From: Phocaeicola dorei
GTDB lineage: Bacteria; Bacteroidota; Bacteroidia; Bacteroidales; Bacteroidaceae
Assembly: GCF_013009555.1 (NCBI RefSeq)
Contig: NZ_CP046176.1
Coordinates: 5,487,501-5,551,500, forward strand
DNA: 64,000 nucleotides
Reading direction: 5' to 3'
Positions 16,694-29,016 of the stretch are shown here, one piece after another (position 1 is the stretch's first letter; every line of letters starts with the position of its first letter). The translations under genes and the position numbers were made by a program. The notes beneath the pieces were generated by a model. The model did no database searches, was not told the origin of the DNA, and was given only the letters and a program-made list of their open reading frames with translations.

Positions 16694-16696
16694 TCT

Positions 16697-18871
16697 TTAA
16701 CCTATTTCATCAAACTGTTCCTTCCATAAACGATGATACATCCCATTCGAATTGAACAATTCTTCATGAGTACCTGCCTCGATTACTTGCCCCTTATCAA
16801 TCACCACAATCTTATCAGCATTCTTCACTGTACTCAACCGATGAGCAATCACGATAATCGTTTTCCCCTTCCGTGCCAATGCATCTAATGTCTGCTTTAC
16901 ATAGCGTTCGGAAATAGAATCAAGCGAAGACGTTGCCTCATCGAAAATAAGTATCTCCGGTTCCTTATACAAAGCACGCGCTATGGCAAGCCGCTGCCGC
17001 TCGCCACCCGACAAGGATGCACCATGTTCACCGATATAAGTCCGGTAGTCCTTAGGCAAACCATCTATAAAGTCCTTCAAGCCAAGTTGTTCTGTCAAAT
17101 CTACAATTTTCTTCATGTCCGGATGCAAGTCGCCTACCGCTATATTCTCTGCAATGCTGCCGGCAAATAATTCAATCTGTTGAGGTACTGTTCCCACCCG
17201 GCGACGAAGGCTGCGATTGTCTATTTGCGCAATATCATAATCGCCTATGCGAATGCGACCCTCCTGTATAGGATAAATATGCTGTAACAACGAAATCAAA
17301 GTCGTCTTGCCCGACCCGCTTTCTCCCACTATGGCAGTAGTCTTCCCCTTTTCTATCTTCAAGCCCAATTCCTTGAACACATCCTTGCGCGAACCATAGC
17401 GAAACGAAACATTCTCAAACGTAATATCGCCTACCATATCCGGTTCTAATATTATCTTTTGATTATTATCCTGTTCGCGTTCCAAGTCCATAATCTGGAA
17501 TAAGCGGTCGGCGGCAATCAGTGCATCCTGAATAGTCTGATTGGAAGAAATCAGCGAGCCGATAGGAGAAATTACATAACCAACCAAGGAATAAAACACC
17601 ATCAGAGCGCCGGGTGTCAACTCCTGATCGACCACCAAAATACTTCCTAACCAAAGAACGGCAATCGTAATGCCGGTAGATACAAACTGAATACCGCCTT
17701 GCGCCATAATGGATCCATAAATACTGCGATACGTATTCTTTAATAAATGTACAAAACGAGTTTCCGTTTTCAAATTGGCATATTCCTCTATACCGAATCG
17801 TTTGATAGTAGAAATAGAATTAAGAGACTCCACCAATTGCGCTTCCAAATCAGCACTACTTTCCATAATACCGCGCTGATATTTCCGGTTCAATTTATTA
17901 AATCCCCAGAAAATAAGCAAGAATAAGGGGGCAGACACTAATGTAATCAATGCCAGCTCCCAGGAATAAACGAACATAAGGCACACAGAGAAGACAAGAA
18001 TCATGATATTAACCACCAGATCCAACGAAACATTATTGATAAAATTACGGATTTTCACCGCATCATTGACGCGTGAAATAATTTCACCTACGCGCATCGT
18101 ATCAAAGAATTGCTGAGGTAAAGTCAGCAGATGCTTATAATATCCTAAAATCAATGCCGCATCAATCCGTTGTCCGGTCTTTAAAGCCAGAATACTTTTC
18201 ATTGCTCCGATAAAAGTCCGCAATAGCAGGATGACCAGCATGATCACTCCCATGAGATTGAGTAAATTGATATTTTTATCCACCAATACATAATCTGTAA
18301 TTTTACCTACATAGATGGAAGTGGATAATCCCAAAATGCTATAAATAAGCGCACCAAACACGGCTTGTAGCATCACGCTTTTGTGAGGAGCCAGCAGAGA
18401 AAAGAACTTCTTTGTCATACCGGTTTTCATGTTTCCGGTCTTGAAAGTTTCTTCCGGTTCCAATAACACCAGTACACCGGTCCACATTTTCTCAAATTCC
18501 TGATTGGTCACGCGATGCATCCGCCCGTCACCCGGATCCATATACTCTATGTATTCTTTCTTTTTCTCCACCTTATATATCACTACAAAATGCTGAAGCT
18601 GCTCGTGCACGATGACATGGGCAATAACAGGTTTAGGAACAATATACAATGCCTCAAACTTAGCCCGCACTCCTTTAGCTGACAAGCCCAGCTTATTAGC
18701 AGCCTCTATCAACCCCAAAATATTCGTTCCTTTTTGATCGGTAAACGCATATTGGCGGATACGTGCAATGGGAAATTGCAAACCATAATAGGCACATACG
18801 GAAGCCAGACAAGCCGCTCCGCAATCTGTAATATCAAACTGTTTTATTTTAATACCTTTCTTGCTCATCAT
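16697..18871 (-). CDS. Peptidase-containing ABC transporter (C39, bacteriocin-exporter type)
   Basis: A 724-residue protein from ATG 18871 (ATGATG, 18868 also possible); a TTG further upstream overlaps the HlyD stop and is unlikely. Residues 1-140 form a C39 leader peptidase with Gln11 and catalytic Cys17 in QFDITDCGAACL, a His in LQHFVVIY and Asp in MDPGDG, so it looks active and would cleave after Gly-Gly. The six-helix membrane domain is about 160-440. The nucleotide-binding domain has Walker A GESGSGKTT, signature LSGGERQR and Walker B ILIFDEATSSLD. Substrates are probably the GG-leader peptides at 20.6-26.9 kb. Confidence 0.96.
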   Translation of the reverse strand: MMSKKGIKIKQFDITDCGAACLASVCAYYGLQFPIARIRQYAFTDQKGTNILGLIEAANKLGLSAKGVRAKFEALYIVPKPVIAHVIVHEQLQHFVVIYKVEKKKEYIEYMDPGDGRMHRVTNQEFEKMWTGVLVLLEPEETFKTGNMKTGMTKKFFSLLAPHKSVMLQAVFGALIYSILGLSTSIYVGKITDYVLVDKNINLLNLMGVIMLVILLLRTFIGAMKSILALKTGQRIDAALILGYYKHLLTLPQQFFDTMRVGEIISRVNDAVKIRNFINNVSLDLVVNIMILVFSVCLMFVYSWELALITLVSAPLFLLIFWGFNKLNRKYQRGIMESSADLEAQLVESLNSISTIKRFGIEEYANLKTETRFVHLLKNTYRSIYGSIMAQGGIQFVSTGITIAVLWLGSILVVDQELTPGALMVFYSLVGYVISPIGSLISSNQTIQDALIAADRLFQIMDLEREQDNNQKIILEPDMVGDITFENVSFRYGSRKDVFKELGLKIEKGKTTAIVGESGSGKTTLISLLQHIYPIQEGRIRIGDYDIAQIDNRSLRRRVGTVPQQIELFAGSIAENIAVGDLHPDMKKIVDLTEQLGLKDFIDGLPKDYRTYIGEHGASLSGGERQRLAIARALYKEPEILIFDEATSSLDSISERYVKQTLDALARKGKTIIVIAHRLSTVKNADKIVVIDKGQVIEAGTHEELFNSNGMYHRLWKEQFDEIG

Positions 18872-18897
18872 TGAATATTTATAAATGAATTGTAGAA

Positions 18898-20064
18898 TCA
18901 AAATTTAGCTATCATCGCATTATTCTCATATTGTTTGGGATTCGCCCAATCGTCTATCTTTTGGTAGAGCAAATCGAAAAGCGATCGCCGCGTTATCATA
19001 AAATGGGCACTGACGGTCATTCCCTTCTTTAATATTCCTTTCTGTCCGCTTTTCAGCATAAGATAGTTCCGCTCCATTTGACATTTCACTTTATAGAATG
19101 AGTTTCCCTGACTGTCGGTTAGGAAGTCTGATGAAATTTCGGTCACTTTGCCGGGTAATGTTCCCCATTCATTATAATTAAATGATTCCACCTGTACATT
19201 GACCGGCATTCCCAAACTCATAAAACCGATATTTCGAGGAGTAACATATATCTCCATACACAGTGTGGAATCCGGGCTGATAACTGCCAATGACTGTCCT
19301 GCCTGTATACTGCTTCCCCTGTATATGCCGGAAAATTGATCAATGGTTCCACTTATCGGACTACGAACTATATAGAGTTCTTTATCTTTCAACTCTTGCT
19401 TCAGTGTAGTATTCATTTCGCTACGAGAATTACGATACGTATTCAGATCTGCCTGCCACGTACTCAACTGGCTTTGTATCAATGAAGCCAGTTCATTTTG
19501 CCGGCTTTGATATTGAAAATAATATTTATCATATTCTTCTTCTGAAATCACTTTCTTATCAAACAGGTTTTTATTGCGCTTATACTCTTTTTCTGCCTGT
19601 GCCAAAGAGGTTTCCAGTTCTTTTTGCTTTTTGATAAAATAGGTATATTCCTGTTGACGTACCGGAGAATGAAACCTGGCAGGACATTCGCCTTTTGCCA
19701 GATAAGCCAAATCTGACAAATGTGCTTCATAGTCATTCAGGCGATTCGTTTGATAATTGATTTTATAATCGGAGTTATTGGTGCGGAAGCGGAGGAGTAC
19801 ATCGCCTTTATTCACTTGATCGCCTTCGCGCACATAAACTGAATCTATTAATTCTGTGATAGACGATTTTATTTCAGTTTTTTCAGTAACCGGCCTTACT
19901 ACTCCACTGCCTTGCACAGAGATATCTACATAGATAAAAGGCAATGCAATCATAACGGCAGTCACGGCTGCCAATACTATCCAATAGATAATTTGGGATT
20001 TTGCGGTGTGTTGATAGATGTATGTTTCAATACTGTTCTCTATCCATTCATTTGGTAATAACAT
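18898..20064 (-). CDS. HlyD-family membrane-fusion protein of the exporter
   Basis: A 388-residue periplasmic adaptor with one N-terminal membrane helix (residues about 24-46, IIYWIVLAAVTAVMIALPF), a lipoyl-like half (VREGDQVNKGDVLLRF), a coiled-coil hairpin (about 120-210) and a second lipoyl half with a beta-barrel (IVRSPISGTIDQF, then GMPVNVQVESF). It is the first gene of the HlyD-ABC-TolC operon, with its stop 26 bp before the ABC start. A TAnnTTTG box and a three-hexamer operator lie just upstream (20094-20151). Confidence 0.95.
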   Translation of the reverse strand: MLLPNEWIENSIETYIYQHTAKSQIIYWIVLAAVTAVMIALPFIYVDISVQGSGVVRPVTEKTEIKSSITELIDSVYVREGDQVNKGDVLLRFRTNNSDYKINYQTNRLNDYEAHLSDLAYLAKGECPARFHSPVRQQEYTYFIKKQKELETSLAQAEKEYKRNKNLFDKKVISEEEYDKYYFQYQSRQNELASLIQSQLSTWQADLNTYRNSRSEMNTTLKQELKDKELYIVRSPISGTIDQFSGIYRGSSIQAGQSLAVISPDSTLCMEIYVTPRNIGFMSLGMPVNVQVESFNYNEWGTLPGKVTEISSDFLTDSQGNSFYKVKCQMERNYLMLKSGQKGILKKGMTVSAHFMITRRSLFDLLYQKIDDWANPKQYENNAMIAKF

Positions 20065-20093
20065 AACATTTCTACTTTTACTGATTCATGCAG

Positions 20094-20151
20094 CAAAAGT
20101 AGAATGAAAGAAAAAAGATATGTGTTATCGAATTGTTATCTTTAGGTTAAT
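20094..20151 (-). promoter_or_regulatory. Site A: promoter and 11-bp-repeat operator for the exporter operon
   Basis: Transcription towards HlyD would use TACTTTTG (minus strand, 20094-20101). On the plus strand GTTATC (20124), GTTATC (20135) and GTTAAT (20146) follow at exactly 11-bp steps. The first hexamer starts 22 bp from the -7 box, so the operator covers the -33 region as in PhoB-type activation. The same layout recurs at 25218, 26700 and 26920. The responsible factor is inferred to be the response regulator at 28318. Confidence 0.75.
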
Positions 20152-20170
20152 ATCTATAAGTTTATACAGA

Positions 20171-20209
20171 AAAGATTCAGTGTTGACATGTTTTCAACAC
20201 TGAATCTTT
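20171..20209. terminator. Hairpin terminator, perfect 15-bp stem
   Basis: AAAGATTCAGTGTTG (20171-20185) pairs perfectly with 20195-20209 across a 9-nt loop. It separates the small-peptide genes upstream from the exporter promoter and most likely ends the peptide transcript on the minus strand. Confidence 0.7.
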
Positions 20210-20265
20210 ATTTAGAATGCACTATAGACAATTCCAATGATACCATTAATGCTTTTGAAACGATA

Positions 20266-20463
20266 TCAAGCGTCTTTATTTTTTCTATATATCAATATGA
20301 CATTATAAAAAAGTCCTATTATATAGATAATTATAAATGCTTGCACACTAGTTATCTCAAATACAAACTGTTTCGTTTTAAAATAAACAATCATCAAATT
20401 CACTAGTTGCATGGAAATAAATAGTATGACAAAATTCTTTGTATATAGTTTAATTCTACTCAT
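20266..20463 (-). CDS. Small two-helix membrane protein, possible immunity protein
   Basis: A 65-residue hydrophobic protein with two predicted membrane helices (about residues 9-29 and 40-58) and a basic tail (YRKNKDA). It lies 147 bp after the GG-leader peptide at 20610 on the same strand and before the hairpin at 20171, a typical place for an immunity protein. No homologous family is recognised; the immunity role is inferred from context only. Confidence 0.5.
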   Translation of the reverse strand: MSRIKLYTKNFVILFISMQLVNLMIVYFKTKQFVFEITSVQAFIIIYIIGLFYNVILIYRKNKDA

Positions 20464-20609
20464 TTTTTAATGGATTATACAATTGATTTAGTGGATATTC
20501 TTTAGCTTATCTCAATATATCACACTATGCATTTTTTGCTATCTCAATTAACAAGCGCAATTATTAAAATAAAACATTAGTTTCACAATTGCAATACCAA
20601 ATTACTCTA

Positions 20610-20750
20610 CTATAAGCAAAAGAGTACATACACTCCATACATTGCACAGGCCCCATAAAATGCTTTACCTATTTTATGTCCCAATTCTCTACCTTCTTCA
20701 TAAGATCCTCCATCAATCTGTCGAAGTTCGTCAAAAGTTAATTCATTCAT
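20610..20750 (-). CDS. Double-glycine-leader peptide 1 (class II bacteriocin-like)
   Basis: A 46-residue peptide from ATG 20750 (an in-frame upstream ATG is less likely). The leader MNELTFDELRQIDGG is a textbook double-glycine leader (LTFDEL..I.GG). The mature part (31 residues) starts SYEEGRELGHKIGKAFYG and has overlapping GxxxG motifs, followed by a hydrophobic C-terminus (AMYGVYVLFCL) and two cysteines. This fits a pore-forming class IIb-like bacteriocin. It starts 22 bp after the neighbouring peptide's stop. It should be cleaved and exported by the C39 ABC transporter. Activity is not demonstrated. Confidence 0.8.
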   Translation of the reverse strand: MNELTFDELRQIDGGSYEEGRELGHKIGKAFYGACAMYGVYVLFCL

Positions 20751-20772
20751 AATGATAATTTTTAAATTAATA

Positions 20773-20943
20773 CTAATAAAGAGGGGATTCAACTATACCA
20801 ACAAGTACCCCAATAAAAGAAGTTATATTACTCCAATTTTGCCTTGCCGTACTTGAGTTCATATAATAAGACATTGATACTCCAGCTAGAATTTCTTTCA
20901 ATTCAGATGATGTCAATTTTGATGTCATTATATCATTTTCCAT
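20773..20943 (-). CDS. Glycine-type-leader peptide 2, possible partner of peptide 1
   Basis: A 56-residue peptide found by reading the minus strand. The N-terminus resembles a leader (MTSKLTSSELKEILAG), with AG instead of GG at the presumed cleavage site. The C-terminal part has a GVLVG motif in a hydrophobic run (SFIGVLVGIVE). Its ATG lies inside the 3' end of the upstream membrane-protein gene, with an 11-bp overlap, suggesting translational coupling. With peptide 1 directly downstream this resembles a two-peptide (class IIb) arrangement. It is shorter than usual annotation limits. Confidence 0.65.
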   Translation of the reverse strand: MENDIMTSKLTSSELKEILAGVSMSYYMNSSTARQNWSNITSFIGVLVGIVESPLY

Positions 20944-21172
20944 TTTTTCTTCGTATTATAAAATTAATTGCTACTATCAGTAAAATAAGTTTACTCACTA
21001 TATTTATAGAGTTAAATATACTTTCTTCTATATTCAAATTAGAATTTTGAAGGAGTAATACAAACAATACAAATACTACCAAAAATCCAAAAAGAAAAAT
21101 AGTTTTTATCATTTTAACTATTCCACTATTATCTCTACAGAATTTCTCTATTATTGATTTGTATCTCATCAT
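20933..21172 (-). CDS. Small two-helix membrane protein upstream of peptide 2
   Basis: A 79-residue protein (ATGATG at 21172/21169) with a basic N-terminus, two hydrophobic helices (about 23-43 and 54-70) and a basic tail (RRKNGK). Its stop overlaps the start of the peptide-2 gene. By position it may be an immunity or accessory protein. No known family is recognised. Confidence 0.55.
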   Translation of the reverse strand: MMRYKSIIEKFCRDNSGIVKMIKTIFLFGFLVVFVLFVLLLQNSNLNIEESIFNSINIVSKLILLIVAINFIIRRKNGK

Positions 21173-21330
21173 TTATATTTTTTTATTCATTTCATAAATA
21201 TACTGAGTAGTTTAAATAGATTTTCTCATAAACTATTTTGATTACTATTTTTTACAAATTCAATATCATATAAAAATTATAGTAATATTACAATTTCTAA
21301 ACTATAGTCAAAATTATATTTACATAAAAG

Positions 21331-21477
21331 CTACCAGCAGACAACATCCGCCAACAGTCCATATTTCTCATGGAGTTGTTCCATCTGTTCCGCAGTAGGA
21401 GGCATACACCCTCCCGATACCTGTACACGTTCCTCACCACTGAGTGGCTTCACCATGCAATAATCATTTTTTTTCAT
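21331..21477 (-). CDS. GG-leader peptide, MKKNDY family copy 1 (intact coding sequence)
   Basis: A 48-residue peptide. The 23-residue leader starts MKKNDYCMVKPLSGEE and ends VSGG. The 25-residue core begins with Cys (CMPPTAEQ) and ends with VVCW, so two cysteines bracket it. Two paralogues lie at 24648 and 26191 with almost the same leader. This copy keeps both the GG site and the full core. However, an IS982-like element begins 28 bp upstream, which cuts it off from the promoter it would share with its neighbours. Function unknown; processing by the C39 transporter is inferred. Confidence 0.75.
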   Translation of the reverse strand: MKKNDYCMVKPLSGEERVQVSGGCMPPTAEQMEQLHEKYGLLADVVCW

Positions 21478-21504
21478 ACTTCATTTTGTGTTTTATTGTT
21501 ATAT

Positions 21505-22585
21505 ATGCGAATCAGTAGTTGAAATACCTACTTGATTCAGTTAGTTAAAATGTTATTATTCAATTAATTATCTCGTTTATTTATTTCTCAATCTCCTTGA
21601 AAATCAGTATATTAGAAGAATAAAACCACTCATTATTCTAATTATGATTCCCAAGGAGAAAGAGCTAAAACTTATAAAAATATATATGTACATCTGCGAT
21701 ATTTACCAGTCTTCACTGAAGTTTTACTGCCAGAGATTCAGTAATAATGCAACTCCTATCTTTACAGACCAGGAACTGCTTACCGTATATCTGTTTTGCG
21801 GAGCCTATCAGCGATACTTCCAAATCAAAGAGATACATACATTCACTGAAGAATATTTGCTCTCATGGTTCCCCAACCTACCTTCTTATCAGACATTCAA
21901 CTATCGGTTAAACCTGATGAGTGAGGCCATTAGTGAACTTGTAAAGCATCTCATTACATTCTTTAAACCAGAGGATTGCGATTCTATGACATCACTTATT
22001 GACTCTATGCCTATTATTACCTGTGCAGGAAAGAATAAAACAGGAAAGGTAGCTACTGAAATTGCAACCAAAGGATACTGTTCTACAAAGAACATGTATT
22101 ACTTCGGTCTCAAACTCCATGCTTTAGCCTTCCGCAGGGAAGGAACTATTCCATTCCCGGAAATGATTCTCTTATCATCGGCAGAAGAGAATGACCTGAC
22201 AGTTCTTAAAAGAGAAGCCGCTGATAGCCTTATAAACAGAAACATCTTTGCCGATAAGATATACTCGGATTTTTCTTACTGGGGCAATAAGCAACAAGAA
22301 CAAGGAACTACTATGCTAACTCCCGTGAAAGCAATAAAAGGAGAGGAACCAGTTATTACTCAAAGAGAGAAAGCTGGAAGAGAACTGTTCTCTACTGCTG
22401 TTTCAAAGGTCAGACAGCCTATAGAAGCGTTTTTCAACTGGCTGAATGAGAAAACAAATATTCAAAGAGCGATGAAAGTCAGATCAACATCTGGACTTTT
22501 AGTACATACGATGGGAAAAATTGCCATCGCATTCATTTATCTAATTTTTTAAAACAAGAATCAGAAATCAACTACTGATTCGCAT
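21505..22585 (+). mobile_element. IS982-family-like insertion sequence, copy 1
   Basis: Inverted repeats begin ATGCGAATCAGTAGTTGA at 21505 and the exact complement ends at 22585, giving an element of about 1081 bp with one transposase gene. It appears identical to copy 2 (23535), 2030 bp away. Unlike copy 2 I find no matching target duplication (left flank TATAT, right flank TACTA), hinting at deletion or recombination beside it. Confidence 0.85.
21644..22552 (+). CDS. IS982-like transposase, copy 1
   Basis: A 302-residue DDE transposase with likely catalytic residues Asp120 (SLIDSMPI), Asp204 or Asp209 (FADKIYSD) and Glu261 (RQPIEAFFNWLNEKTNIQ). Length and motif order fit the IS982 family. 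The protein is identical to that of copy 2. No frameshift is visible, so it may be active. Confidence 0.9.
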   Translation: MIPKEKELKLIKIYMYICDIYQSSLKFYCQRFSNNATPIFTDQELLTVYLFCGAYQRYFQIKEIHTFTEEYLLSWFPNLPSYQTFNYRLNLMSEAISELVKHLITFFKPEDCDSMTSLIDSMPIITCAGKNKTGKVATEIATKGYCSTKNMYYFGLKLHALAFRREGTIPFPEMILLSSAEENDLTVLKREAADSLINRNIFADKIYSDFSYWGNKQQEQGTTMLTPVKAIKGEEPVITQREKAGRELFSTAVSKVRQPIEAFFNWLNEKTNIQRAMKVRSTSGLLVHTMGKIAIAFIYLIF

Positions 22586-22946
22586 TACTAATAATCATTC
22601 TATTTATTGCATAAGACAATAAGGCACCAACAAAAGTAGCAATTATATCTTTATAATCACATAATCCCCCTTCCACTATCAATCCCAATAATTCATATAT
22701 CATCAATCCACATGAAGAATAGAAAAGCAACTTAATCGGTTTGTACATTTCATTAGGAGAAAAAAGAGAAACAAGAATAAAAAAAACAACACATTCACCA
22801 AACAGATTAGTGTATGTATCGGCAAGATAGAAATCAAATAAATGATTTGTATATACCCAAGGACGGTAATACGTCCGGAATAGCAGCATTATTATGATAA
22901 AGAGACAACCTACTATCAAGTGAAGCAATCTATGTTTTTTTCTCAT
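22572..22946 (-). CDS. VanZ-like membrane protein, C-terminus altered by the IS
   Basis: A 124-residue membrane protein with four likely helices and a VanZ-like signature in its last third (DYKDIIATFVGALLSY). The stop codon and last few residues (NANQ) are encoded by the terminal inverted repeat of IS copy 1, so the native C-terminus has been lost. It follows two GG-leader peptides and a small membrane peptide on the same strand; by analogy it may have been an immunity protein. Whether it still works is unclear. Confidence 0.65.
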   Translation of the reverse strand: MRKKHRLLHLIVGCLFIIIMLLFRTYYRPWVYTNHLFDFYLADTYTNLFGECVVFFILVSLFSPNEMYKPIKLLFYSSCGLMIYELLGLIVEGGLCDYKDIIATFVGALLSYAINRMIISNANQ

Positions 22947-23019
22947 AATTACGATATCTAGTTGCTAGTCAGGAAAGCTTATAAACAATCCTGACTAATA
23001 AATTCTTATTTAAAATTAA

Positions 23020-23133
23020 TCATACTAGTATATTATATAATTGAATAACAATTGATATAACCACATAAATAATCAAGATAAAATTGATTCGCTTCAATTT
23101 TTTGTTTTCCTTTTGTAAATCCGTTTGTTTCAT
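23020..23133 (-). CDS. Small single-helix membrane peptide
   Basis: A 37-residue peptide: a basic N-terminal stretch (KENKKLKRI) followed by one hydrophobic helix. It begins 13 bp after the stop of the GG-leader peptide at 23147, in the same direction. It may be an accessory or immunity peptide. Too small for family assignment. Confidence 0.45.
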   Translation of the reverse strand: MKQTDLQKENKKLKRINFILIIYVVISIVIQLYNILV

Positions 23134-23146
23134 TATCTATTCGTTT

Positions 23147-23317
23147 TTATCCATAAGCTGTTGGACTATTTTGTGCCATCTGACCAAAATATTCTAAAAA
23201 ATTACAAATACTTGCTCCTATAGAACCTACACTATTCCCCAAACTTCTCATTGCTTTATCTCCACCACAAAAACATTTACATTCTTGCTCAGATAATTCT
23301 TCATAAACACATTTCAT
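23147..23317 (-). CDS. Double-glycine-leader peptide with GxxxG (Cys-rich leader)
   Basis: A 56-residue peptide. Leader MKCVYEELSEQECKCFCGG ends in GG and is unusually rich in cysteine. The 37-residue core starts DKAMRSLGNSVGSIGASI, has a GNSVG (GxxxG) motif and one Cys, and ends in AYG. It starts 18 bp after the stop of the neighbouring peptide, suggesting a two-peptide bacteriocin pair. Confidence 0.7.
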   Translation of the reverse strand: MKCVYEELSEQECKCFCGGDKAMRSLGNSVGSIGASICNFLEYFGQMAQNSPTAYG

Positions 23318-23335
23318 AAAATAATACTTTAATGA

Positions 23336-23515
23336 TTAATTTCTTGTTCCGTTCCATCCCTCATTAACCCCCACGCAAAAATCATCCCAATTATTGTATA
23401 CATAAATTGCAGCACCAGCCACAGCAAGAGCTAAAGCGACCCATCCACCATTCACTTCTTGCATCTCATTCACATTCATTTCCTGCATCAAAGCACTATT
23501 TTCTAAATTTTTCAT
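23336..23515 (-). CDS. Double-glycine-leader peptide (class II bacteriocin-like)
   Basis: A 59-residue peptide. Leader MKNLENSALMQEMNVNEMQE ends VNGG, a clear double-glycine leader. The 35-residue core starts with a hydrophobic helix (WVALALAVAGAAIYVY) and continues into a polar tail ending NGTRN. IS copy 2 ends only 19 bp upstream of the start codon, so its native promoter is gone and any expression depends on the IS. Confidence 0.75.
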   Translation of the reverse strand: MKNLENSALMQEMNVNEMQEVNGGWVALALAVAGAAIYVYNNWDDFCVGVNEGWNGTRN

Positions 23516-23534
23516 AATAGTATTTTTTTTATTA

Positions 23535-24615
23535 ATGCGAATCAGTAGTTGAAATACCTACTTGATTCAGTTAGTTAAAATGTTATTATTCAATTAATTA
23601 TCTCGTTTATTTATTTCTCAATCTCCTTGAAAATCAGTATATTAGAAGAATAAAACCACTCATTATTCTAATTATGATTCCCAAGGAGAAAGAGCTAAAA
23701 CTTATAAAAATATATATGTACATCTGCGATATTTACCAGTCTTCACTGAAGTTTTACTGCCAGAGATTCAGTAATAATGCAACTCCTATCTTTACAGACC
23801 AGGAACTGCTTACCGTATATCTGTTTTGCGGAGCCTATCAGCGATACTTCCAAATCAAAGAGATACATACATTCACTGAAGAATATTTGCTCTCATGGTT
23901 CCCCAACCTACCTTCTTATCAGACATTCAACTATCGGTTAAACCTGATGAGTGAGGCCATTAGTGAACTTGTAAAGCATCTCATTACATTCTTTAAACCA
24001 GAGGATTGCGATTCTATGACATCACTTATTGACTCTATGCCTATTATTACCTGTGCAGGAAAGAATAAAACAGGAAAGGTAGCTACTGAAATTGCAACCA
24101 AAGGATACTGTTCTACAAAGAACATGTATTACTTCGGTCTCAAACTCCATGCTTTAGCCTTCCGCAGGGAAGGAACTATTCCATTCCCGGAAATGATTCT
24201 CTTATCATCGGCAGAAGAGAATGACCTGACAGTTCTTAAAAGAGAAGCCGCTGATAGCCTTATAAACAGAAACATCTTTGCCGATAAGATATACTCGGAT
24301 TTTTCTTACTGGGGCAATAAGCAACAAGAACAAGGAACTACTATGCTAACTCCCGTGAAAGCAATAAAAGGAGAGGAACCAGTTATTACTCAAAGAGAGA
24401 AAGCTGGAAGAGAACTGTTCTCTACTGCTGTTTCAAAGGTCAGACAGCCTATAGAAGCGTTTTTCAACTGGCTGAATGAGAAAACAAATATTCAAAGAGC
24501 GATGAAAGTCAGATCAACATCTGGACTTTTAGTACATACGATGGGAAAAATTGCCATCGCATTCATTTATCTAATTTTTTAAAACAAGAATCAGAAATCA
24601 ACTACTGATTCGCAT
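23535..24615 (+). mobile_element. IS982-family-like insertion sequence, copy 2
   Basis: Same inverted repeats and length as copy 1. It is flanked on both sides by TATTA (23530-23534 and 24616-24620), which fits a 5-bp target duplication from direct insertion. Confidence 0.85.
23674..24582 (+). CDS. IS982-like transposase, copy 2
   Basis: A 302-residue DDE transposase identical in protein sequence to copy 1, with the same Asp120, Asp204/209 and Glu261 candidates. The near-perfect identity of the two elements points to recent transposition or duplication. Confidence 0.9.
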   Translation: MIPKEKELKLIKIYMYICDIYQSSLKFYCQRFSNNATPIFTDQELLTVYLFCGAYQRYFQIKEIHTFTEEYLLSWFPNLPSYQTFNYRLNLMSEAISELVKHLITFFKPEDCDSMTSLIDSMPIITCAGKNKTGKVATEIATKGYCSTKNMYYFGLKLHALAFRREGTIPFPEMILLSSAEENDLTVLKREAADSLINRNIFADKIYSDFSYWGNKQQEQGTTMLTPVKAIKGEEPVITQREKAGRELFSTAVSKVRQPIEAFFNWLNEKTNIQRAMKVRSTSGLLVHTMGKIAIAFIYLIF

Positions 24616-24647
24616 TATTAGTTAATAAATTGTATTTATCTAAAAGC

Positions 24648-24794
24648 CTACCAGCAGATAATATCCGCTAATGGTCCATATATTTTACGAAGTTGTTCCA
24701 TCTGTTCCGCAGCAGGAGGCATACACTCTCCCGATACCTGTACATGTTCCTCACCACTGAGTGGCTTCACCATGCAATAATCATTTTTTTTCAT
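24648..24794 (-). CDS. Leader peptide, MKKNDY family copy 2 (GG site changed to GE)
   Basis: A 48-residue paralogue of the peptide at 21331 with the same leader (MKKNDYCMVKPLSGEE) and core layout (CMPPAAEQ to IICW). The cleavage site reads VSGE, not VSGG, so the second Gly is lost and C39 processing is probably impaired. About 40 bp upstream there is a short stretch similar to the 3' end of the peptide at 26384, so a two-gene unit was duplicated. Confidence 0.65.
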   Translation of the reverse strand: MKKNDYCMVKPLSGEEHVQVSGECMPPAAEQMEQLRKIYGPLADIICW

Positions 24795-24897
24795 ACTTCA
24801 TTTTGTGTTTTATTGTTATATACTAAGAAAATAATTCTCTAAAATAGCTCCAAGAACATTCATATACAGAAACTGTCATATTACATTAATATCCGTA

Positions 24898-25059
24898 CTA
24901 TTTCCCTTTATCATCTTCTTTTTTTCTTACACTAATATTAAGTATCGCTACCAGAAAAAGAAAGCATACGGGAATCAACTTAGCCCGGTCTCCCTCATAG
25001 AGAAATAAAGCTATAGCAAGTAAAAATACTGATACAATATACAGAATACTCTTTTTCAT
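24898..25059 (-). CDS. Small two-helix membrane protein, possible immunity protein
   Basis: A 53-residue protein with two hydrophobic segments (about residues 4-20 and 27-43), separated by a charged loop (YEGDRAK), and a charged tail (VRKKEDDKGK). It starts 2 bp after the end of a decayed bacteriocin-like core, so it probably was its immunity partner. Context-based inference. Confidence 0.5.
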   Translation of the reverse strand: MKKSILYIVSVFLLAIALFLYEGDRAKLIPVCFLFLVAILNISVRKKEDDKGK

Positions 25060-25061
25060 AT

Positions 25062-25197
25062 TCAACAGAATGTTGCCACACCTACTAATGCTCCACTGTA
25101 TCCACCCAAAGCTTCACCCGAAACAGTCCGGCTCCTGTCAAAATACCAAGACCTGCACCACCGACCGCACCAGCTACATATTTAGCATACTGAGTAA
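25062..25197 (-). pseudogene. Decayed class II bacteriocin-like core peptide
   Basis: Gly/Ala-rich sequence typical of bacteriocin cores can be read on the minus strand: ITQYAKYVAGAVGGAGLGIL, then after a frame change TVSGEALGGYSGALVGVATF and a stop at 25062-25064. There is no ATG and no leader, and the halves are in different frames. It starts about 20 bp after the -7 box of site B, so the leader appears to have been deleted and the promoter joined to the core. Confidence 0.6.
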
Positions 25198-25217
25198 TTA
25201 GGGTTGTTTCGATGCGA

Positions 25218-25275
25218 CAAATATAAATCTACTTTTTCAAACTCTTTGTTATCAGATTATTATCTTTAGATTAAT
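25218..25275 (-). promoter_or_regulatory. Site B: promoter with 11-bp-repeat operator
   Basis: Minus-strand -7 box TATATTTG (25218-25225). The hexamers on the plus strand are GTTATC (25248), ATTATC (25259) and ATTAAT (25270), at 11-bp steps and 22 bp from the box. It reads into the decayed peptide, the small membrane protein and the MKKNDY copy at 24648. Spacing is identical to sites A, C and D. Confidence 0.7.
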
Positions 25276-25305
25276 GTTAAATCGTCGTACAAGACATATC
25301 ATTTA

Positions 25306-25551
25306 TCATCTAAAATAATATCCTCCGAAAAAAAGTATTGCTGCAACAATCCATATTATCAGCAAAGCAATAAAAATTCTTTTTGTCCAGCTATATGCTT
25401 TTTTTAAACTGATGACATAGGAAACATCTGACTTTCTATTCTTTTTCCAAGCCTCTATACTATGGTATAAAGGAATTATGCCTAAAACAGGACACATAAA
25501 AGTTAGCAGAACCGATAATAAAAGGACTGTTGATATATGTTCTTTTTCCAT
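25306..25551 (-). CDS. CD225/dispanin-like small membrane protein
   Basis: An 81-residue protein from ATG 25551; a longer in-frame start overlaps the upstream gene. Two membrane helices (about 9-29 and 60-79) flank a cytoplasmic loop with the pattern CPVLGIIPLYHSIEAWKKN and a later SLKKAYSWTKR, which fits the CD225/dispanin (IFITM-like) layout. It starts 13 bp after the lipoprotein stop, so the two are probably co-transcribed. An immunity or membrane-protection role is a guess from position. Confidence 0.6.
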   Translation of the reverse strand: MEKEHISTVLLLSVLLTFMCPVLGIIPLYHSIEAWKKNRKSDVSYVISLKKAYSWTKRIFIALLIIWIVAAILFFGGYYFR

Positions 25552-25564
25552 ACTGATTGTTATT

Positions 25565-26140
25565 TTAAAATGCACAATAAATTGCACTGCCTAGTACTCC
25601 ACCAACAGTACATGCTCCAAAAAACAAATCGCCAATATCACATGCTATAGGGTGGTTATTCTCATAAAAATCTTTATAATTTTGGTATTCATCATTGGCA
25701 CACTGATACCAACTAGCAAGACTTCTTGTTTTTACTAAATTTTCATCATCAAATTCCAATTTTATATCTTTCAAGGTATTATCAGATATATATAATGTTG
25801 CAAATAGTACTTCATCAGTCGTGTAGTGATAAAGTATATAATTATTTTCGTCTATATTTTCTTTCACCAAAATAGCATCAAGTTTTATATCTCTATTATC
25901 CTCTCTATAAACAGATAAATAAAATTGTTCTATATTTCGACCTGAGGCACGAGTGATATAAGGAACCTCTTTGCTTTTCAATTCATAACCTAGTCCATTT
26001 TGTTTGATATCAATAATCACAGTACTTTTCCTTTCTTTTTCCATCACAGATTCGGAATTACTACAACTAAAGAACAACAATGTAATAAAGCAAGCGCAAA
26101 ATGATTTTGCGATTTTAAATACAATTCTTTTCATATTCAT
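25565..26140 (-). CDS. Lipoprotein with bacteriocin-like C-terminal tail
   Basis: A 191-residue lipoprotein with lipobox LFFSC (Cys26; ATG 26140 or 26134). The middle region is polar and beta-rich with no known family. The last about 25 residues form a Gly-rich hydrophobic tail (DLFFGACTVGGVLGSAIYCA) that resembles the core of a class II bacteriocin and shares the FxGAC pattern with peptide 1 at 20610. It lies downstream of the peptide group driven by site C. It could be a decoy/immunity protein or a carrier; both are speculative. Confidence 0.6.
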   Translation of the reverse strand: MNMKRIVFKIAKSFCACFITLLFFSCSNSESVMEKERKSTVIIDIKQNGLGYELKSKEVPYITRASGRNIEQFYLSVYREDNRDIKLDAILVKENIDENNYILYHYTTDEVLFATLYISDNTLKDIKLEFDDENLVKTRSLASWYQCANDEYQNYKDFYENNHPIACDIGDLFFGACTVGGVLGSAIYCAF

Positions 26141-26152
26141 ATAGTTTTCTAT

Positions 26153-26193
26153 TAATGCAAATCAATAGGAAGTACTGATACTGATTTACATTA
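26153..26193. repeat. Short relic resembling IS ends
   Basis: TAATGCAAATCAATA (26153-26167) and TACTGATTTACATTA (about 26179-26193) form an imperfect inverted repeat matching the IS terminal repeat (ATGCGAATCAGTA) except at two or three positions. It looks like a relic in which only the ends remain. The stop of the peptide at 26191 lies within it. Confidence 0.4.
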
Positions 26194-26355
26194 GTTAATA
26201 AAATTGTACTTATATAAAAACCTACCAGCAGATAACATCTGCCAACAGTCCATATTTCTCATTTGTTCCGCTGTAGGAGGCGCATAACCTCCCGATATCT
26301 GTGCATATTCCTCGCCACTGAGTGGCTTCACCATGCAATAATCATTCTTTTTCAT
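26191..26355 (-). CDS. Leader peptide, MKKNDY family copy 3 (frameshifted core)
   Basis: A 54-residue paralogue. Leader MKKNDYCMVKPLSGEE ends ISGG, so the cleavage site is intact, but the core begins YAPPTAEQM (first Cys changed to Tyr). Compared with the copy at 21331, 13 bp are missing after AEQM, between two ATG trinucleotides, so the rest is read in another frame (RNMDCWQMLSAGRF...). The product is probably altered. It follows two other GG-leader peptides driven by site C. Confidence 0.65.
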   Translation of the reverse strand: MKKNDYCMVKPLSGEEYAQISGGYAPPTAEQMRNMDCWQMLSAGRFLYKYNFIN

Positions 26356-26383
26356 ACTTCATTTTGTGTTTTGTTGTTATATA

Positions 26384-26506
26384 CTAAAAAAATAATTCTC
26401 TAAAACGGCTGGGTACTACAAATACACTAGTCAGACTAGTACTGCTACTGTAAATGTAGCATCCACCATAAATATTCATACATTCTGCTAACGTCAGCGT
26501 TTTCAT
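26384..26506 (-). CDS. Double-glycine-leader peptide (NIYGG family)
   Basis: A 40-residue peptide. Leader MKTLTLAECMNIYGG ends in GG; the NIYGG ending is shared with the peptide at 26753. The 25-residue core starts with Cys (CYIYSSSTSLTSVF) and ends RELFF. Its ATG begins 1 bp after the preceding peptide's stop, so the two are coupled. Homologous 3' sequence recurs near 24835. Confidence 0.7.
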   Translation of the reverse strand: MKTLTLAECMNIYGGCYIYSSSTSLTSVFVVPSRFRELFF

Positions 26507-26507
26507 T

Positions 26508-26669
26508 TCATTTAATTCTTATCATGTTCTGTGTTCGTGTTATTATTTTCCCTATTTCAATATTAGGGCAATCTCTGATTCTTCTTTTGAACAAGCGGAC
26601 AGTAAAAAGTGGTATACCGGTCATGTGATTTACGTCCCCACCTTGTTCGTTTATACTCGTTTTTTCCAT
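26508..26669 (-). CDS. Short GG-containing basic peptide
   Basis: A 53-residue peptide starting at ATG 26669, the first start after the site-C promoter box at 26700-26707 (an ATG at 26702 would overlap the box). Short N-terminal part MEKTSINEQGG looks like a compact leader; the remaining 42 residues are basic (FKRRIRD, ending MIRIK) with one Cys. The GG motif could be fortuitous, but the position at the head of a peptide group supports a leader peptide. Confidence 0.5.
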   Translation of the reverse strand: MEKTSINEQGGDVNHMTGIPLFTVRLFKRRIRDCPNIEIGKIITRTQNMIRIK

Positions 26670-26699
26670 ATCTCTCTTTTTGGGTTTGTTTTGATGCGA

Positions 26700-26757
26700 C
26701 AAAGGTAAATTGCTTTTTTCTAACTCTTTGTTATTGAAGTGTTATCTCTATGTTAAT
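26700..26757 (-). promoter_or_regulatory. Site C: promoter with 11-bp-repeat operator
   Basis: Minus-strand -7 box TACCTTTG (26700-26707), plus-strand hexamers GTTATT (26730), GTTATC (26741) and GTTAAT (26752) at 11-bp steps, first hexamer 22 bp from the box. It drives the peptides at 26508, 26384 and 26191 and perhaps the lipoprotein. The flank before the box (GATGCGACAAA) is nearly the same at site B. Confidence 0.75.
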
Positions 26758-26875
26758 TGTTTATATATCTGGGTATACACTTACCTTCTTCATTCAATAC
26801 ATAAACAACTCTTCCTTCACCACCATAAATATTTTCTTTTTCTCCTTTTCTCAATTCTAAAATAATATTTTCCAT
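26753..26875 (-). CDS. Double-glycine-leader peptide next to the sensor kinase
   Basis: A 40-residue peptide. Leader MENIILELRKGEKENIYGG ends in GG; the 21-residue core starts EGRVVYVLNEEGK and has one Cys. It is unusually polar and short for a pore-forming bacteriocin. It is the first gene on the minus strand from site D, which lies between it and the kinase gene, so a signalling role is possible (inference). Its stop overlaps site C. Confidence 0.65.
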   Translation of the reverse strand: MENIILELRKGEKENIYGGEGRVVYVLNEEGKCIPRYINN

Positions 26876-26919
26876 AACTTATTGTTTTAATTTAAATGAC
26901 TTACATTTGTTTTACATTG

Positions 26920-26977
26920 CAAATATACAGGCTATTTTTATAATAAAATGTTATCCGATTGTTATCTAACATTAGAA
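26920..26977 (-). promoter_or_regulatory. Site D: promoter with operator, between peptide and kinase genes
   Basis: Minus-strand box TATATTTG (26920-26927) and plus-strand GTTATC (26950), GTTATC (26961) and a weaker third hexamer (TTAGAA, 26972), again 22 bp from the box. The two perfect GTTATC copies are 11 bp apart. The operator also lies 9 bp upstream of the kinase -7 box on the other strand, so the regulator may control itself. Confidence 0.7.
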
Positions 26978-26986
26978 ATATGTTAT

Positions 26987-26994
26987 TATCTTTG
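26987..26994 (+). promoter_or_regulatory. -7 box for the kinase-regulator operon
   Basis: TATCTTTG fits TAnnTTTG and lies 13 bp before the kinase ATG (27008). The resulting leader would be very short. Confidence 0.6.
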
Positions 26995-27007
26995 CAAAAA
27001 AATAAAC

Positions 27008-28321
27008 ATGAAAGGTAGACACATTAAAATACTCACTATTTTTGGATTAATAGCAATTATAGCTTTACAAACTATATGGTTATGTAATGCATATATACAG
27101 TTTTCACAAAGTATATATAAAGATAGTAATGACATTTTAAAGAAGTCCTTAAACAGGGAAGCTTCTATTAGATTTGAAAAAACACCTAAGGGAACAATGA
27201 TAAATGGTGCTCCAATAAAAGATTCTAACGAAATTGTACCGGAAATAGCCTATTTGAACGAAGGATTATTAAAACTAGGATTAGAACTATCATTAACTAA
27301 TGTTGATTCCCTCGCCAATGATTTCTTAAAAGCTACTAATATTGAAAGTACAATAACTATCTACCTACTGAATACTGACACAGAAAAAGTTCTGAATAAA
27401 AGCAAGAATGATTTAGATATCCATTCATTCGGGATTATAAAAACAGATATAATTCCGATCCGGACAGATTTATCACAAGGTGTGCAAATGATTTTAATAA
27501 ACCCATATTACACAATTATTAAACGTATGGGGTTACTGCTAATAGCAACTGTCATATTGATGATTTTTGTAATAGGATGTATTGTATATCAAATAAAAAT
27601 CATCGCCAGACAAAATAAAATAGCCCAACTCAGGGAAGATTTTTCTTATGCCATGATTCATGATATGAAAACACCACTCAGTTCTATCACGATGTGTACT
27701 AGTTTTCTGCACAGTGGAAGACTGGATGACAAACCTGAAATGAAAGAGAAATATTTTACTATCGTAGAAAATGAAGCAGATCATTTATTAGCATTGACCA
27801 ATAAGATACTTACATTATCAAAACTAGAAAATCATAAATTGGAAATGAATAAGAAAAAAATCTCATTCGAACCTATTATTGAGGATTTAAAAGAGAAGTT
27901 TATAACAAAATCTGACAAACCCATTCATTTCACTATTGATTTAAAAGCCAAAGAAGTATATGTTGATGAAGAATTTTTTAAAGAACTTATGAGCAACTTG
28001 ATAGATAATGCCATTAAATATTCCAAAAAGAGTATTGAAATAAAAATAAGTTCGCATTACGATGATAAATATACCATTATAAAAATATATGATAACGGAA
28101 TGGGTATCTCAGAGAAAGATCAAAGAACCATTTTCGACAAGTTTGAACGTGCTTCAGCAACTAAACGCACTAAATTTGGTGGAGCTACCGGATTTGGATT
28201 AGGTTTAAACTATGTTTATCAAGTAATTGAAGCACATGAAGGAAAAATATATGTAAACAGCATAGAAGGAGATTTTACAGAATTTACTTTGTTTATACCT
28301 AAAATTATGGAGGAACTATGA
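27008..28321 (+). CDS. Sensor histidine kinase (probable peptide-regulon sensor)
   Basis: A 437-residue membrane kinase. ATG 27008 is chosen because upstream in-frame starts (from 26948) fall in the operator and promoter. Two membrane helices (about residues 8-28 and 172-195) flank a periplasmic domain of about 140 residues of unknown type. HisKA carries His218 in MIHDMKTPLS; HATPase_c has the N box NLIDNAIKYS, G1 DNGMGIS and G2 GFGLGLNYV. It overlaps the regulator by 4 bp (ATGA). It resembles the RprX-type kinases of Bacteroides in general, but the sensed signal is unknown. Confidence 0.92.
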   Translation: MKGRHIKILTIFGLIAIIALQTIWLCNAYIQFSQSIYKDSNDILKKSLNREASIRFEKTPKGTMINGAPIKDSNEIVPEIAYLNEGLLKLGLELSLTNVDSLANDFLKATNIESTITIYLLNTDTEKVLNKSKNDLDIHSFGIIKTDIIPIRTDLSQGVQMILINPYYTIIKRMGLLLIATVILMIFVIGCIVYQIKIIARQNKIAQLREDFSYAMIHDMKTPLSSITMCTSFLHSGRLDDKPEMKEKYFTIVENEADHLLALTNKILTLSKLENHKLEMNKKKISFEPIIEDLKEKFITKSDKPIHFTIDLKAKEVYVDEEFFKELMSNLIDNAIKYSKKSIEIKISSHYDDKYTIIKIYDNGMGISEKDQRTIFDKFERASATKRTKFGGATGFGLGLNYVYQVIEAHEGKIYVNSIEGDFTEFTLFIPKIMEEL

Positions 28322-29016
28322 TTAAACTTTTATTAGTAGAAGATGATCCCACTTTCAGTTATATCGTGAAAAGTGGATTACAGGAAATTATTGGTGGTTA
28401 TGAAGTGATAACTGCTATGAATGGAAAAGAAGGATTGAAGGCTTGGGAAGAATATCATCCGGATATCATTATTTCGGATATTGACATGCCTGTAATGAAC
28501 GGTTATCAAATGGTAGAGCGTATTCGTGAAACTGATGGAGATACTCCTATTTTATTTGCTTCCGCATTGACTTCTCCCAAAGATGTAAAAGAAGGATATA
28601 AACTAGGTGTTAATAACTATGTGAAAAAGCCCTTTGTGCCCGATGAACTCGATGCGCATATACATGCCATTCTTAAAATAAAAGCAGGAACCAAATCACG
28701 CAATGAAAATGAACATTATAAACTGGGACGTTTCACACTGGATGCCAAACATGCCACACTGTATAATGATGAAACTGAAGAAAAAAAGATGCTAACTGTA
28801 CGCGAGGCAAAAATACTTCAACTCTTCTGTAAGAATATAAATGAAACTGTGGAAAGAAAAGCTATTCTAAGCCGTTTTTGGGATACGGAAGACGATTATT
28901 TTAAATCACGCAGCCTGGATGTTTTTATCACGAAATTGCGGAAACTGTTGAAAGATGAACCTCGCATTGAATTGAAAAATATCCGAGGAGTAGGTTATAC
29001 ATTGTTACTGACCTGA
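28318..29016 (+). CDS. OmpR-family response regulator (probable peptide-regulon activator)
   Basis: A 232-residue regulator. Receiver domain (about 1-120) with phospho-acceptor Asp54 in IIISDIDMPVM and Lys in NNYVKKPF. Winged-helix DNA-binding domain (about 135-232) with SRSLDVFITKLRKLLKDEPR as recognition region and ending RGVGYTLLLT. OmpR/PhoB-type regulators bind direct repeats spaced 10-11 bp, which fits the GTTATC-N5 repeats at sites A-D. Binding to them is my inference. Confidence 0.94.
   Translation: MIKLLLVEDDPTFSYIVKSGLQEIIGGYEVITAMNGKEGLKAWEEYHPDIIISDIDMPVMNGYQMVERIRETDGDTPILFASALTSPKDVKEGYKLGVNNYVKKPFVPDELDAHIHAILKIKAGTKSRNENEHYKLGRFTLDAKHATLYNDETEEKKMLTVREAKILQLFCKNINETVERKAILSRFWDTEDDYFKSRSLDVFITKLRKLLKDEPRIELKNIRGVGYTLLLT

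Follow-up and report, generated by a model that had tools for sequence, protein, structure and literature searches.

To our knowledge, most examples of peptide quorum sensing come from Gram-positive bacteria. The ComC/ComD/ComE and Blp systems of streptococci combine a GG-leader peptide encoded beside a kinase with a dedicated C39 exporter, and their regulons include bacteriocin-like peptides. Different peptide alleles go with different receptor N-termini; the kinase is a multi-TM HPK10 protein and the regulator is of the LytTR type. PhoB/OmpR operators (e.g., the Pho box) consist of direct repeats at 11-bp steps, which sit just upstream of the promoter core and replace the upstream promoter element.

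For gut Bacteroidales, PMC6671954 describes bacteroidetocins as GG-leader peptides that come with an ABC transporter carrying a double-glycine peptidase domain, in a region of four genes that include a TM protein, the peptide, a thiol oxidoreductase and a C39 ABC transporter; the terms 'two-component' and 'quorum' are absent from the main text of that paper. The Bacteroidales RiPP clusters of PMC10352776 were picked for modification enzymes (e.g., radical SAM or LanC-like), and GG-motif peptides occur in them together with C39 exporters. Among these clusters, BGC5 encodes a histidine kinase and a response regulator, with no transporter. In PMC3646045, an EMSA shows binding of P. gingivalis RprY to the promoter of its own gene. 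The passages on RprX/RprY in PMC3646045 and PMC6032018 give no peptide/exporter regulon, and 'motif', 'binding site', 'consensus' and 'direct repeat' are absent from both main texts. Term searches of the main texts of a BcpT toxin paper (PMC9308784) and a P. vulgatus fitness paper (PMC13114119) gave no link to the regulon described below.

In the window analysed here (the whole stretch of 64,000 nucleotides), four promoters share one operator, and their common switch probably answers a small secreted peptide that is made beside its own receptor. Our preferred reading, which we hold to be rather likely, is an autoinducing peptide-pheromone system with a logic like that of ComC/ComD, in which a kinase with a periplasmic sensor acts through an OmpR-type regulator to switch on a C39 exporter and bacteriocin-like peptides. 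We did not find a description of such a system in titles and abstract starts of the open-access literature (subscription journals and bioRxiv were outside the scope of this search). The computed results are the anatomy and conservation of the operator, its co-occurrence with the kinase, the kinds of target gene, the divergent cassette of peptide and sensor, and the swapping of sensors.

The first-pass annotation had proposed four such sites, A–D, and all four are present at the positions that it gave, with hexamers at 11-bp steps. Site A at 20124 reads GTTATC-N5-GTTATC-N5-GTTAAT (18/18 hexamer letters), followed by site C at 26730 (17/18), site B at 25248 (16/18) and site D at 26950 (14/18), whose third hexamer is weak as had been noted. 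Each site also has a CAAANNTA box (TAnnTTTG when read on the minus strand), and the distance from the end of this box to the first hexamer is 22 bp in 4/4 sites, as proposed. The operator-promoters, all on the minus strand, thus span 20094–20151 (A; −7 box 20094–20101, hexamers 20124, 20135 and 20146), 25218–25275 (B; −7 box 25218–25225, hexamers 25248, 25259 and 25270), 26700–26757 (C; −7 box 26700–26707, hexamers 26730, 26741 and 26752) and 26920–26977 (D; −7 box 26920–26927, hexamers 26950, 26961 and 26972).

With up to three mismatches, the three-hexamer pattern was matched 3 times in the window, compared with a mean of 0.09 over 100 shuffles. The genome scan for hexamers plus box that had been suggested earlier was run on the whole 5.6-Mb genome: a box, 20–24 bp and two relaxed hexamers gave 5 matches (reversed control, 2), of which 4 were A–D, every one at gap 22, and the fifth (2160655) had a gap of 24. 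Relaxed hexamers without the box showed no genome-wide enrichment at up to one mismatch (65 matches vs. 70 in the reversed control); without mismatch there were 4 matches, 3 of them A, B and C. Hexamers alone were rejected as a genome-wide signature since they did not rise above the reversed control; the operator signal is the combination of box and hexamers. The match at 2160655 and 12/13 of the own-genome matches at 2–3 mismatches (all but 4939947) were taken as chance. A one-mismatch hexamer match at 4181874 is surrounded by efflux-type genes, with no box-plus-hexamer match in its 10-kb neighbourhood, and was not added to the regulon. Across 23 sequences (the window and 22 loci), 69 matches fell at the 11-bp step and 0 or 1 at each step of 7–10 and 12–15 bp. 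In 41 loci, several of which overlap, gap 22 gave 42 matches and each other gap from 12 to 32 gave 0–2, with site D below the cut of that script.

Operator A would drive the exporter operon, and its first downstream ORF is HlyD-like. The operon, on the minus strand, consists of an HlyD-type periplasmic adaptor (18898–20064), an ABC exporter with an N-terminal C39 peptidase (ORF limits 16697–18901, likely ATG near 18871; Pfam Peptidase_C39, and TIGR01193 at 528 bits with a cut-off of 524) and a TolC-like outer-membrane channel (15365–16693; PF02321). Operator B faces a decayed peptide, called by reading the sequence, followed by a small ORF (24898–25065) and a peptide (24648–24794), and operator C faces a small-ORF and peptide group (26669–26191). 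Downstream of C lie the double-glycine peptide MKTLTLAECMNIYGG... (26384–26506, minus strand), which is near-identical in three other genomes (G371, G403 and G080), and MKKNDYCMVKPLSGEE... (26191–26355, minus strand), a double-glycine peptide that is one of three related copies; the second is the peptide at 24648–24794 (minus strand), with SGE in place of SGG, and the third lies at 21331–21477 (minus strand). Also on the minus strand are a class IIb bacteriocin-like double-glycine peptide (23336–23515; TIGR03949 at 25 bits with a cut-off of 21.5, PF10439 below cut-off) and two small ones, MKCVYEELSEQECKCFCGG... (23147–23317, a sequence reading) and MNELTFDELRQIDGG... (20610–20750). For the region from 15365 to 29016, neither the ORF list nor the scan of ten proteins revealed a recognisable modifying enzyme. 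Immediately beyond this region, at 29088–29864, is a radical-SAM-like gene.

Operator D faces the kinase-adjacent peptide, a candidate pheromone precursor of 40 aa (26753–26875, minus strand), which is divergent from the kinase gene and has a leader ending in GG and a 21-aa core. Beside this operator is a candidate −7 box of the kinase gene on the plus strand, TATCTTTG (26987–26994). The sensor histidine kinase (27008–28321, plus strand; 437 aa, HisKA and HATPase_c) is predicted to have a long N-terminal helix, a periplasmic sensor at about residues 36–168, a second long helix and the kinase core, with membrane topology taken from an AlphaFold model (pLDDT 79.9, pTM 0.50, 48 sequences). The OmpR/PhoB-type response regulator follows at 28318–29016 (plus strand), with receiver (PF00072) and winged-helix Trans_reg_C (PF00486) domains above cut-off. 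Its closest NCBIfam model is RprY (NF051850), but at 203 bits against an equivalog cut-off of 370 it was not identified as RprY; nor was the paralogous regulator of this genome (179.6 bits, same cut-off).

In a search of 399 genomes of the family, a strict form of the operator pattern was matched at 98 sites, which lie in 35 genomes (reversed control, 1 match). Relatives of the kinase were sought by whole-genome searches, used in place of a contig scan that had yielded 3 relatives (one, in L006, that is 45% identical along most of the protein, and 2 distant). They are encoded in 33 of these 35 genomes and in 42/399 overall (Fisher 1e-37, which is not a true probability given that the genomes are related). 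This recurrence makes the regulator assignment of the first-pass annotation well supported at the level of sequence. The hexamer letters also roughly follow the recognition helix of the regulator, though with an exception in L006 and mixed hexamers in some loci, and the match mostly follows one deep split. Operators A–D fit RprY-like OmpR/PhoB-type regulators, and among candidates for the protein that binds them, the one encoded at 28318 clearly stands out.

For this system, we infer binding by the regulator, activation rather than repression, processing of the peptide and its role as ligand. A–D would be activator operators of the 28318 regulator, their three monomer sites at 11-bp steps ending where a −33 element would sit. 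TTTG was found at the −33 position in 0/73 operators. Because the three repeats end at that place, we propose that RNA polymerase is brought to TAnnTTTG promoters without TTTG there by the regulator in its phosphorylated form. The C39 exporter behind operator A would cut the precursor after GG and export the mature peptide of ~21 aa, which the periplasmic domain of the kinase would sense. Operator D may then close a positive feedback loop on the peptide, and operators A, B and C would turn on the exporter and the bacteriocin-like peptides.

The target genes in relatives bear on this reading in two ways. The 12 peptide-type loci contain 43 operators, of which 15 face a double-glycine-type peptide, 7 HlyD and 5 TolC (27 in all), and random positions in the same loci met such a peptide ORF in 122/4000 tries. 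The proposed regulon of exporter and peptides holds, and in relatives these 27 operators again precede double-glycine peptides or exporter genes. In 12 other loci, 0/30 operators face either; the same operator class serves other genes there, which the first-pass annotation had missed. It is thus conceivable, if unlikely, that the regulator controls A–D while the kinase senses another signal (envelope stress, a competitor's peptide, or host/bile), and that the D peptide is another exported bacteriocin-like product. Related kinases accompany the operator class at these non-peptide loci, and the modelled two long helices around a periplasmic domain resemble environmental sensors. A Foldseek search of the PDB with the kinase model gave 347 matches at E up to 0.001, and the best 50 of these contained no match for the sensor fold. 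Since these matches cover the kinase core or run long at high rmsd, we claim no ligand class for the sensor.

What that alternative alone leaves unexplained is the organisation of the site D region and the exchange of sensors between kinases. A double-glycine peptide divergent from the kinase occurs in the window and ten further genomes (11 in total); the single peptide beside the kinase had been noted earlier, but not its pairing with the kinase or its place in a divergent, swapped cassette. Within the genus, the peptide family (E below 1e-7; 9.8e-15 in its own genome, where the same peptide is one row of the profile) was found in 10/61 genomes. A close exporter (E up to 1e-150) occurred in 8/61, all 8 among those 10 (Fisher 1.5e-8), and was not found in the peptide-bearing G426 and G401 (the latter 82% complete). 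Another genome, G062, has the kinase, the regulator and an operator, with no match to the site D peptide or the close exporter. Both observations count against the pheromone reading. The leaders of 9 distinct peptide alleles are similar (mean 0.37) and the cores are not (0.03). In three species (G140, G196 and G293), the kinase domain is 97% identical and the sensor 32–47%. The divergent block of ~1 kb (about 1972–2950 of L047) comprises peptide, operator and sensor and is sharply bounded, with flanks mostly 85–100% identical.

Sensors are also exchanged between kinases, in both directions. P0025/P0026 carry a kinase 100% identical to that of the window with a sensor at 21% (30–32% by local alignment), and in the reverse swap, L030 and P0063 are 98% identical in the sensor and 62% in the kinase. 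The peptide of genome G293 is the same as that of G401, and the core is the same in G371 as in G403, each pair with 98% sensor identity. Similarity of core and sensor correlates at r 0.81 for 11 alleles, 0.57 for 9 dereplicated alleles and −0.01 for 8, when G080 alone represents the close pair G080/G371; core-kinase values are 0.69, 0.52 and 0.31. These values give no support for peptide-sensor co-evolution beyond close relatives. As the correlation is lost without G371 and core-kinase values are nearly equal, we did not use it as proof, and its failure is a point for a kinase that senses another signal.

It is quite improbable that the kinase is instead attacked, as the receptor of a bacteriocin or phage, and that its sensor diverges for that reason, with the linked peptide as antidote, decoy or hitchhiker. 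Bacteriocin receptors can diversify under attack, and promoter, peptide and sensor all diverge alike here. Against this, operator and GG leader are kept across most peptide alleles, and the peptide therefore looks maintained as an exported regulon product. We regard as very improbable that another OmpR-type regulator, e.g., the paralogue at 4.94 Mb, binds A–D: a same-anatomy operator does precede the paralogue's own divergent target gene, but its hexamers are GTTAAT/GTTAAC/GTTAAC, compared with mostly GTTATC for the first two in A–D, the recognition helices differ (TRLRK vs. TKLRK in the 28318 regulator), A–D lie <10 kb from 28318, and the GTTATC form mostly accompanies a 28318-type regulator in relatives.

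Extending the pheromone reading, we lean slightly towards a polymorphic pheromone with pherotypes in gut Bacteroidaceae, in which peptide and sensor form an exchangeable cassette on conserved kinase, regulator, exporter and bacteriocin-like genes. On this reading, some species lack the peptide gene through loss and retain kinases with matching sensors, so that they may listen in on others. If true, this would provide a direct handle on when abundant gut bacteria use antibacterial peptides and on which of them hear which others, and with the swapped sensors the matching of ligand and receptor can be tested directly. The operator, with its box, 22-bp gap and three 11-bp repeats, is compact, and its specificity is sufficient for the prediction of regulon members in further Bacteroidaceae genomes.

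Compared with the described systems, the locus shares GG-leader peptides and a double-glycine-peptidase ABC transporter with the bacteroidetocins, but its gene order differs from their region; no thiol oxidoreductase was found among the ten proteins scanned or by eye in the ORF list. Unlike the Bacteroidales RiPP clusters, it has no recognised modifying enzyme. As in RprX/RprY of Bacteroides and Porphyromonas, the regulator is closest to the RprY model. The operator resembles the Pho box in placing 11-bp direct repeats where an upstream promoter element would be, and differs in its hexamer (GTTATC/GTTAAT), its three repeats and the fixed 22-bp spacing to a TAnnTTTG box. As in ComC/D and Blp, a GG-leader precursor lies beside the kinase, and a C39 exporter is under the same operator as the peptides (except in G426 and G401, where it was not found). 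With regard to the receptor input domain and the peptide allele, a shared divergent block and swaps are seen, and the correlation fails without the close pair. Unlike ComC/D and Blp, the kinase is a HisKA protein with two predicted long membrane-type helices rather than an HPK10 multi-TM protein, and an OmpR/PhoB regulator stands in place of LytTR. The operators consist of 11-bp repeats, the promoters are of the Bacteroidota kind, and the cell envelope is Gram-negative.

The four minus-strand operator-promoters A (20094..20151), B (25218..25275), C (26700..26757) and D (26920..26977) share one architecture, as the first-pass annotation had claimed. On re-measurement, the distance from the end of the CAAANNTA box to the first hexamer was exactly 22 bp in 4/4 sites, and the three hexamers follow one another every 11 bp. 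In minus-strand orientation, they end 22 bp upstream of TAnnTTTG, which we take to be the Bacteroidota -7 element, and the last hexamer thus occupies the position of the -33 element. TTTG was found at that position in 0/73 operators examined; its absence does no more than agree with activation, TTTG being rare by chance as well. The three-hexamer pattern occurred three times in the window (vs. a mean of 0.09 in window shuffles), and the genome scan that had been suggested for box and hexamers singled out the same sites: relaxed to the box plus two hexamers, it gave five matches across the complete genome of 5.6 Mb, four of them A-D (reversed control, 2). A looser pattern (≤3 mismatches) returned 17 matches in the same genome, with A-D the best at 0-1 mismatch (reversed controls, 8); one of the weak matches (genome position 4939947) precedes a paralogous kinase. 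Hexamers without the box showed no genome-wide enrichment (65 matches vs. 70 in the control).

The minus-strand genes of the window form a single array. Operator D faces the 40-aa double-glycine precursor (26753-26875), a candidate pheromone divergent from the sensor histidine kinase (27008..28321, plus strand); operator C faces a peptide group, operator B a decayed peptide and its neighbours, and operator A HlyD, the C39-ABC transporter and TolC, all on the minus strand. The ABC protein scores above the TIGR01193 cut-off, and one peptide scores above the class IIb bacteriocin cut-off. On the kinase strand, TATCTTTG at 26987-26994 adjoins the operator D region, so the OmpR/PhoB-type response regulator (28318..29016, plus strand) may also influence kinase expression.

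Two identical insertion-sequence blocks of 1083 bp (21505-22587 and 23535-24617), both encoding a DDE-type transposase, interrupt the peptide array, and their transposase DNA is present in five copies in the genome. The MKKNDYCMVKPLSGEE... peptide family has three diverged copies (21331-21477, 24648-24794 and 26191-26355), two of which end in CW and one of which has SGE at the cleavage site; resembling peptides (e.g., MKELNKDENQSITGG...IICW) are present in the family genome G140 and others. Also within the array, 22572-22946 encodes a weakly VanZ-like membrane protein (under the Pfam cut-off); the G080 array contains two relatives, one of which has its own operator. Past the regulator and convergent to it, the product of 29088-29864 has a CxxxCxxC stretch and appears radical SAM-like by eye.

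The 36 distinct operators of ten peptide-type loci gave a consensus of about CAAARRTA-N22-GTTATC-N5-GTTATC-TTTAK-GTTAAT. Taking as target what comes within 450 bp, and using a leader expression that allowed GG, GA or GE (window site B thus scored via the SGE copy) and overlooked at least three double-glycine peptides (L063 1467, L042 19564 and L059 6505), we classed the targets of 43 operators from 12 peptide-type loci as 15 double-glycine-type peptide, 7 HlyD, 5 TolC, 15 other (including L050 18126, which looks like a chance site) and 1 none; random positions in these loci hit a double-glycine-type peptide ORF in 122/4000 draws. A double-glycine peptide or exporter followed 0/30 operators in 12 other loci, two paralogue loci included, and the operator class therefore extends beyond the peptide system. 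Five loci (L045, L048, L049, L051 and L060) show two or three related kinases per single response regulator in view and the same operator class, with no double-glycine peptide or exporter after their operators. Locus L059 (G232) carries two duplicated operator-promoter units (4658/6505 and 4848/6695) with identical spacers. Small exported-type proteins (roughly 86-163 aa) containing a YN motif, similar by eye, recur under this operator class in peptide-type and other loci (L047 12674, L050 12900, L052 17282, L049 15476, L051 7371, L054 19031 and L060 4200).

Going by the names of its close protein hits, the window belongs to a Bacteroidaceae genome, probably Phocaeicola. Across 399 family genomes, the strict operator pattern matched 98 sites in 35 genomes (reversed control, 1 match); its matches in the window's own genome are the paralogue site plus A and C, with B and D too weak to qualify. 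The window kinase or a relative was found in 42/399 (E up to 1e-40), some relatives being only 32-36% identical to it; kinase absences are soft because the search scored only four candidates per genome. Kinase and operator co-occurred (Fisher 1e-37, in genomes related to one another): 33 of the 35 operator genomes had the kinase or a relative, the other two being G395 and G321, and nine genomes had a kinase and no strict pattern.

The closest named model to the regulator is RprY, with a score under the cut-off. R-type recognition helices (SRLR/TRLR) pair with GTTAA hexamers in the eight operator-bearing paralogue-type genomes, GTTAT is the usual hexamer where the helix has K or N, and G149 and G232, where V replaces T, have GTTAG in many hexamers. 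Locus L006 is an exception (K in the helix, GTTAA hexamers), some other letters appear both in L060 and in the group G140/G196/G293, and no operator was recognised, under this comparison's definition, at five loci that have a regulator. The pattern, which mostly mirrors one deep split, fits the regulator as the binder of these operators. The RprY-like paralogue pair (L041, genome C1:4933000-4943000) has a GTTAAY operator that precedes a divergently oriented gene, whose ~765-aa product starts, by eye, like an outer-membrane receptor; L061 is similar.

Small GG-leader peptides divergent from the kinase were found in the window and ten further genomes (G080, G371, G403, G426, G149, G232, G140, G196, G293 and G401), and in G315 such a peptide lies close to the end of a contig, with the kinase out of view. 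Their leader is conserved at the L, E, I and GG positions; the core (19-25 aa) is not conserved, with a D/N/E-G pair near its middle in 7/9 distinct cores. A profile of these peptides matched 10/61 genus genomes (E below 1e-7), nine of which had supplied profile rows or near-identical ones, and the close exporter occurred in 8/61, all within those 10. Searching databases with the profile yielded 56 proteins out of 136 candidates, most of which were the same alleles in variant or truncated form.

Kinase domains of G140, G196, G293 and G401 are 97-99% identical, against 32-47% for their sensors; G293 and G401 are the exception, with 98% identical sensors and an identical peptide. DNA identity among G140, G196 and G293 is 89-98% in neighbouring peptide genes, 40-73% across peptide, operator and sensor, and 88-100% in the kinase, with a 100-bp step at the kinase edge intermediate; a further drop, to 42-63%, occurs in G196 at the far end past the regulator. 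Upstream of the peptide genes the sequences are either unrelated or wrongly aligned. The sensor was less similar to the window's than the kinase part in 110/120 database homologues; in the database proteins P0025 and P0026, identity to the window's protein is 100% in the kinase and 21% in the sensor (30-32% by local alignment). The reverse swap is seen between L030 and P0063 (sensors 98% identical, kinases 62%). Judged from sequence comparison, these swaps and the divergent block match the trace that ligand-receptor cassette exchange would leave. A core-sensor correlation disappears without near relatives, and core vs. kinase is nearly as strong.

G339 has three kinase genes, one short, alongside a single regulator. 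One of these kinases matches that of G293, a peptide-encoding species, at 85% identity in the sensor and 62% in the kinase part, and its upstream DNA aligns with the G293 peptide-operator stretch over 369 bp at 68% identity; G237 shows a shorter likeness to that stretch (73% over 126 bp). With the peptide profile, the best match in G339 was unconvincing (E 0.23) and G237 gave none. It is possible that both are listeners or decaying systems. At L020, L051 (G339) and L049 (G237), no peptide adjoins the kinase, and the DNA upstream looks like a peptide gene that has been lost.

The simplest account, in which we infer regulator binding, activation, processing and ligand identity, would be autoinduction by a peptide signal that the cell senses in its periplasm. 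Operator D would give positive feedback, and the exporter and bacteriocin-like peptides would be released in coupled fashion. Searches of open-access literature, judged by titles and abstract beginnings, turned up no such system in Bacteroidota. P. gingivalis RprY binds its own promoter, according to part of PMC3646045; operator-motif terms are absent from the main texts of PMC3646045 and PMC6032018. Bacteroidetocin and RiPP papers, in their excerpted text, do not describe such regulation but do report C39 exporters together with GG peptides, as here.
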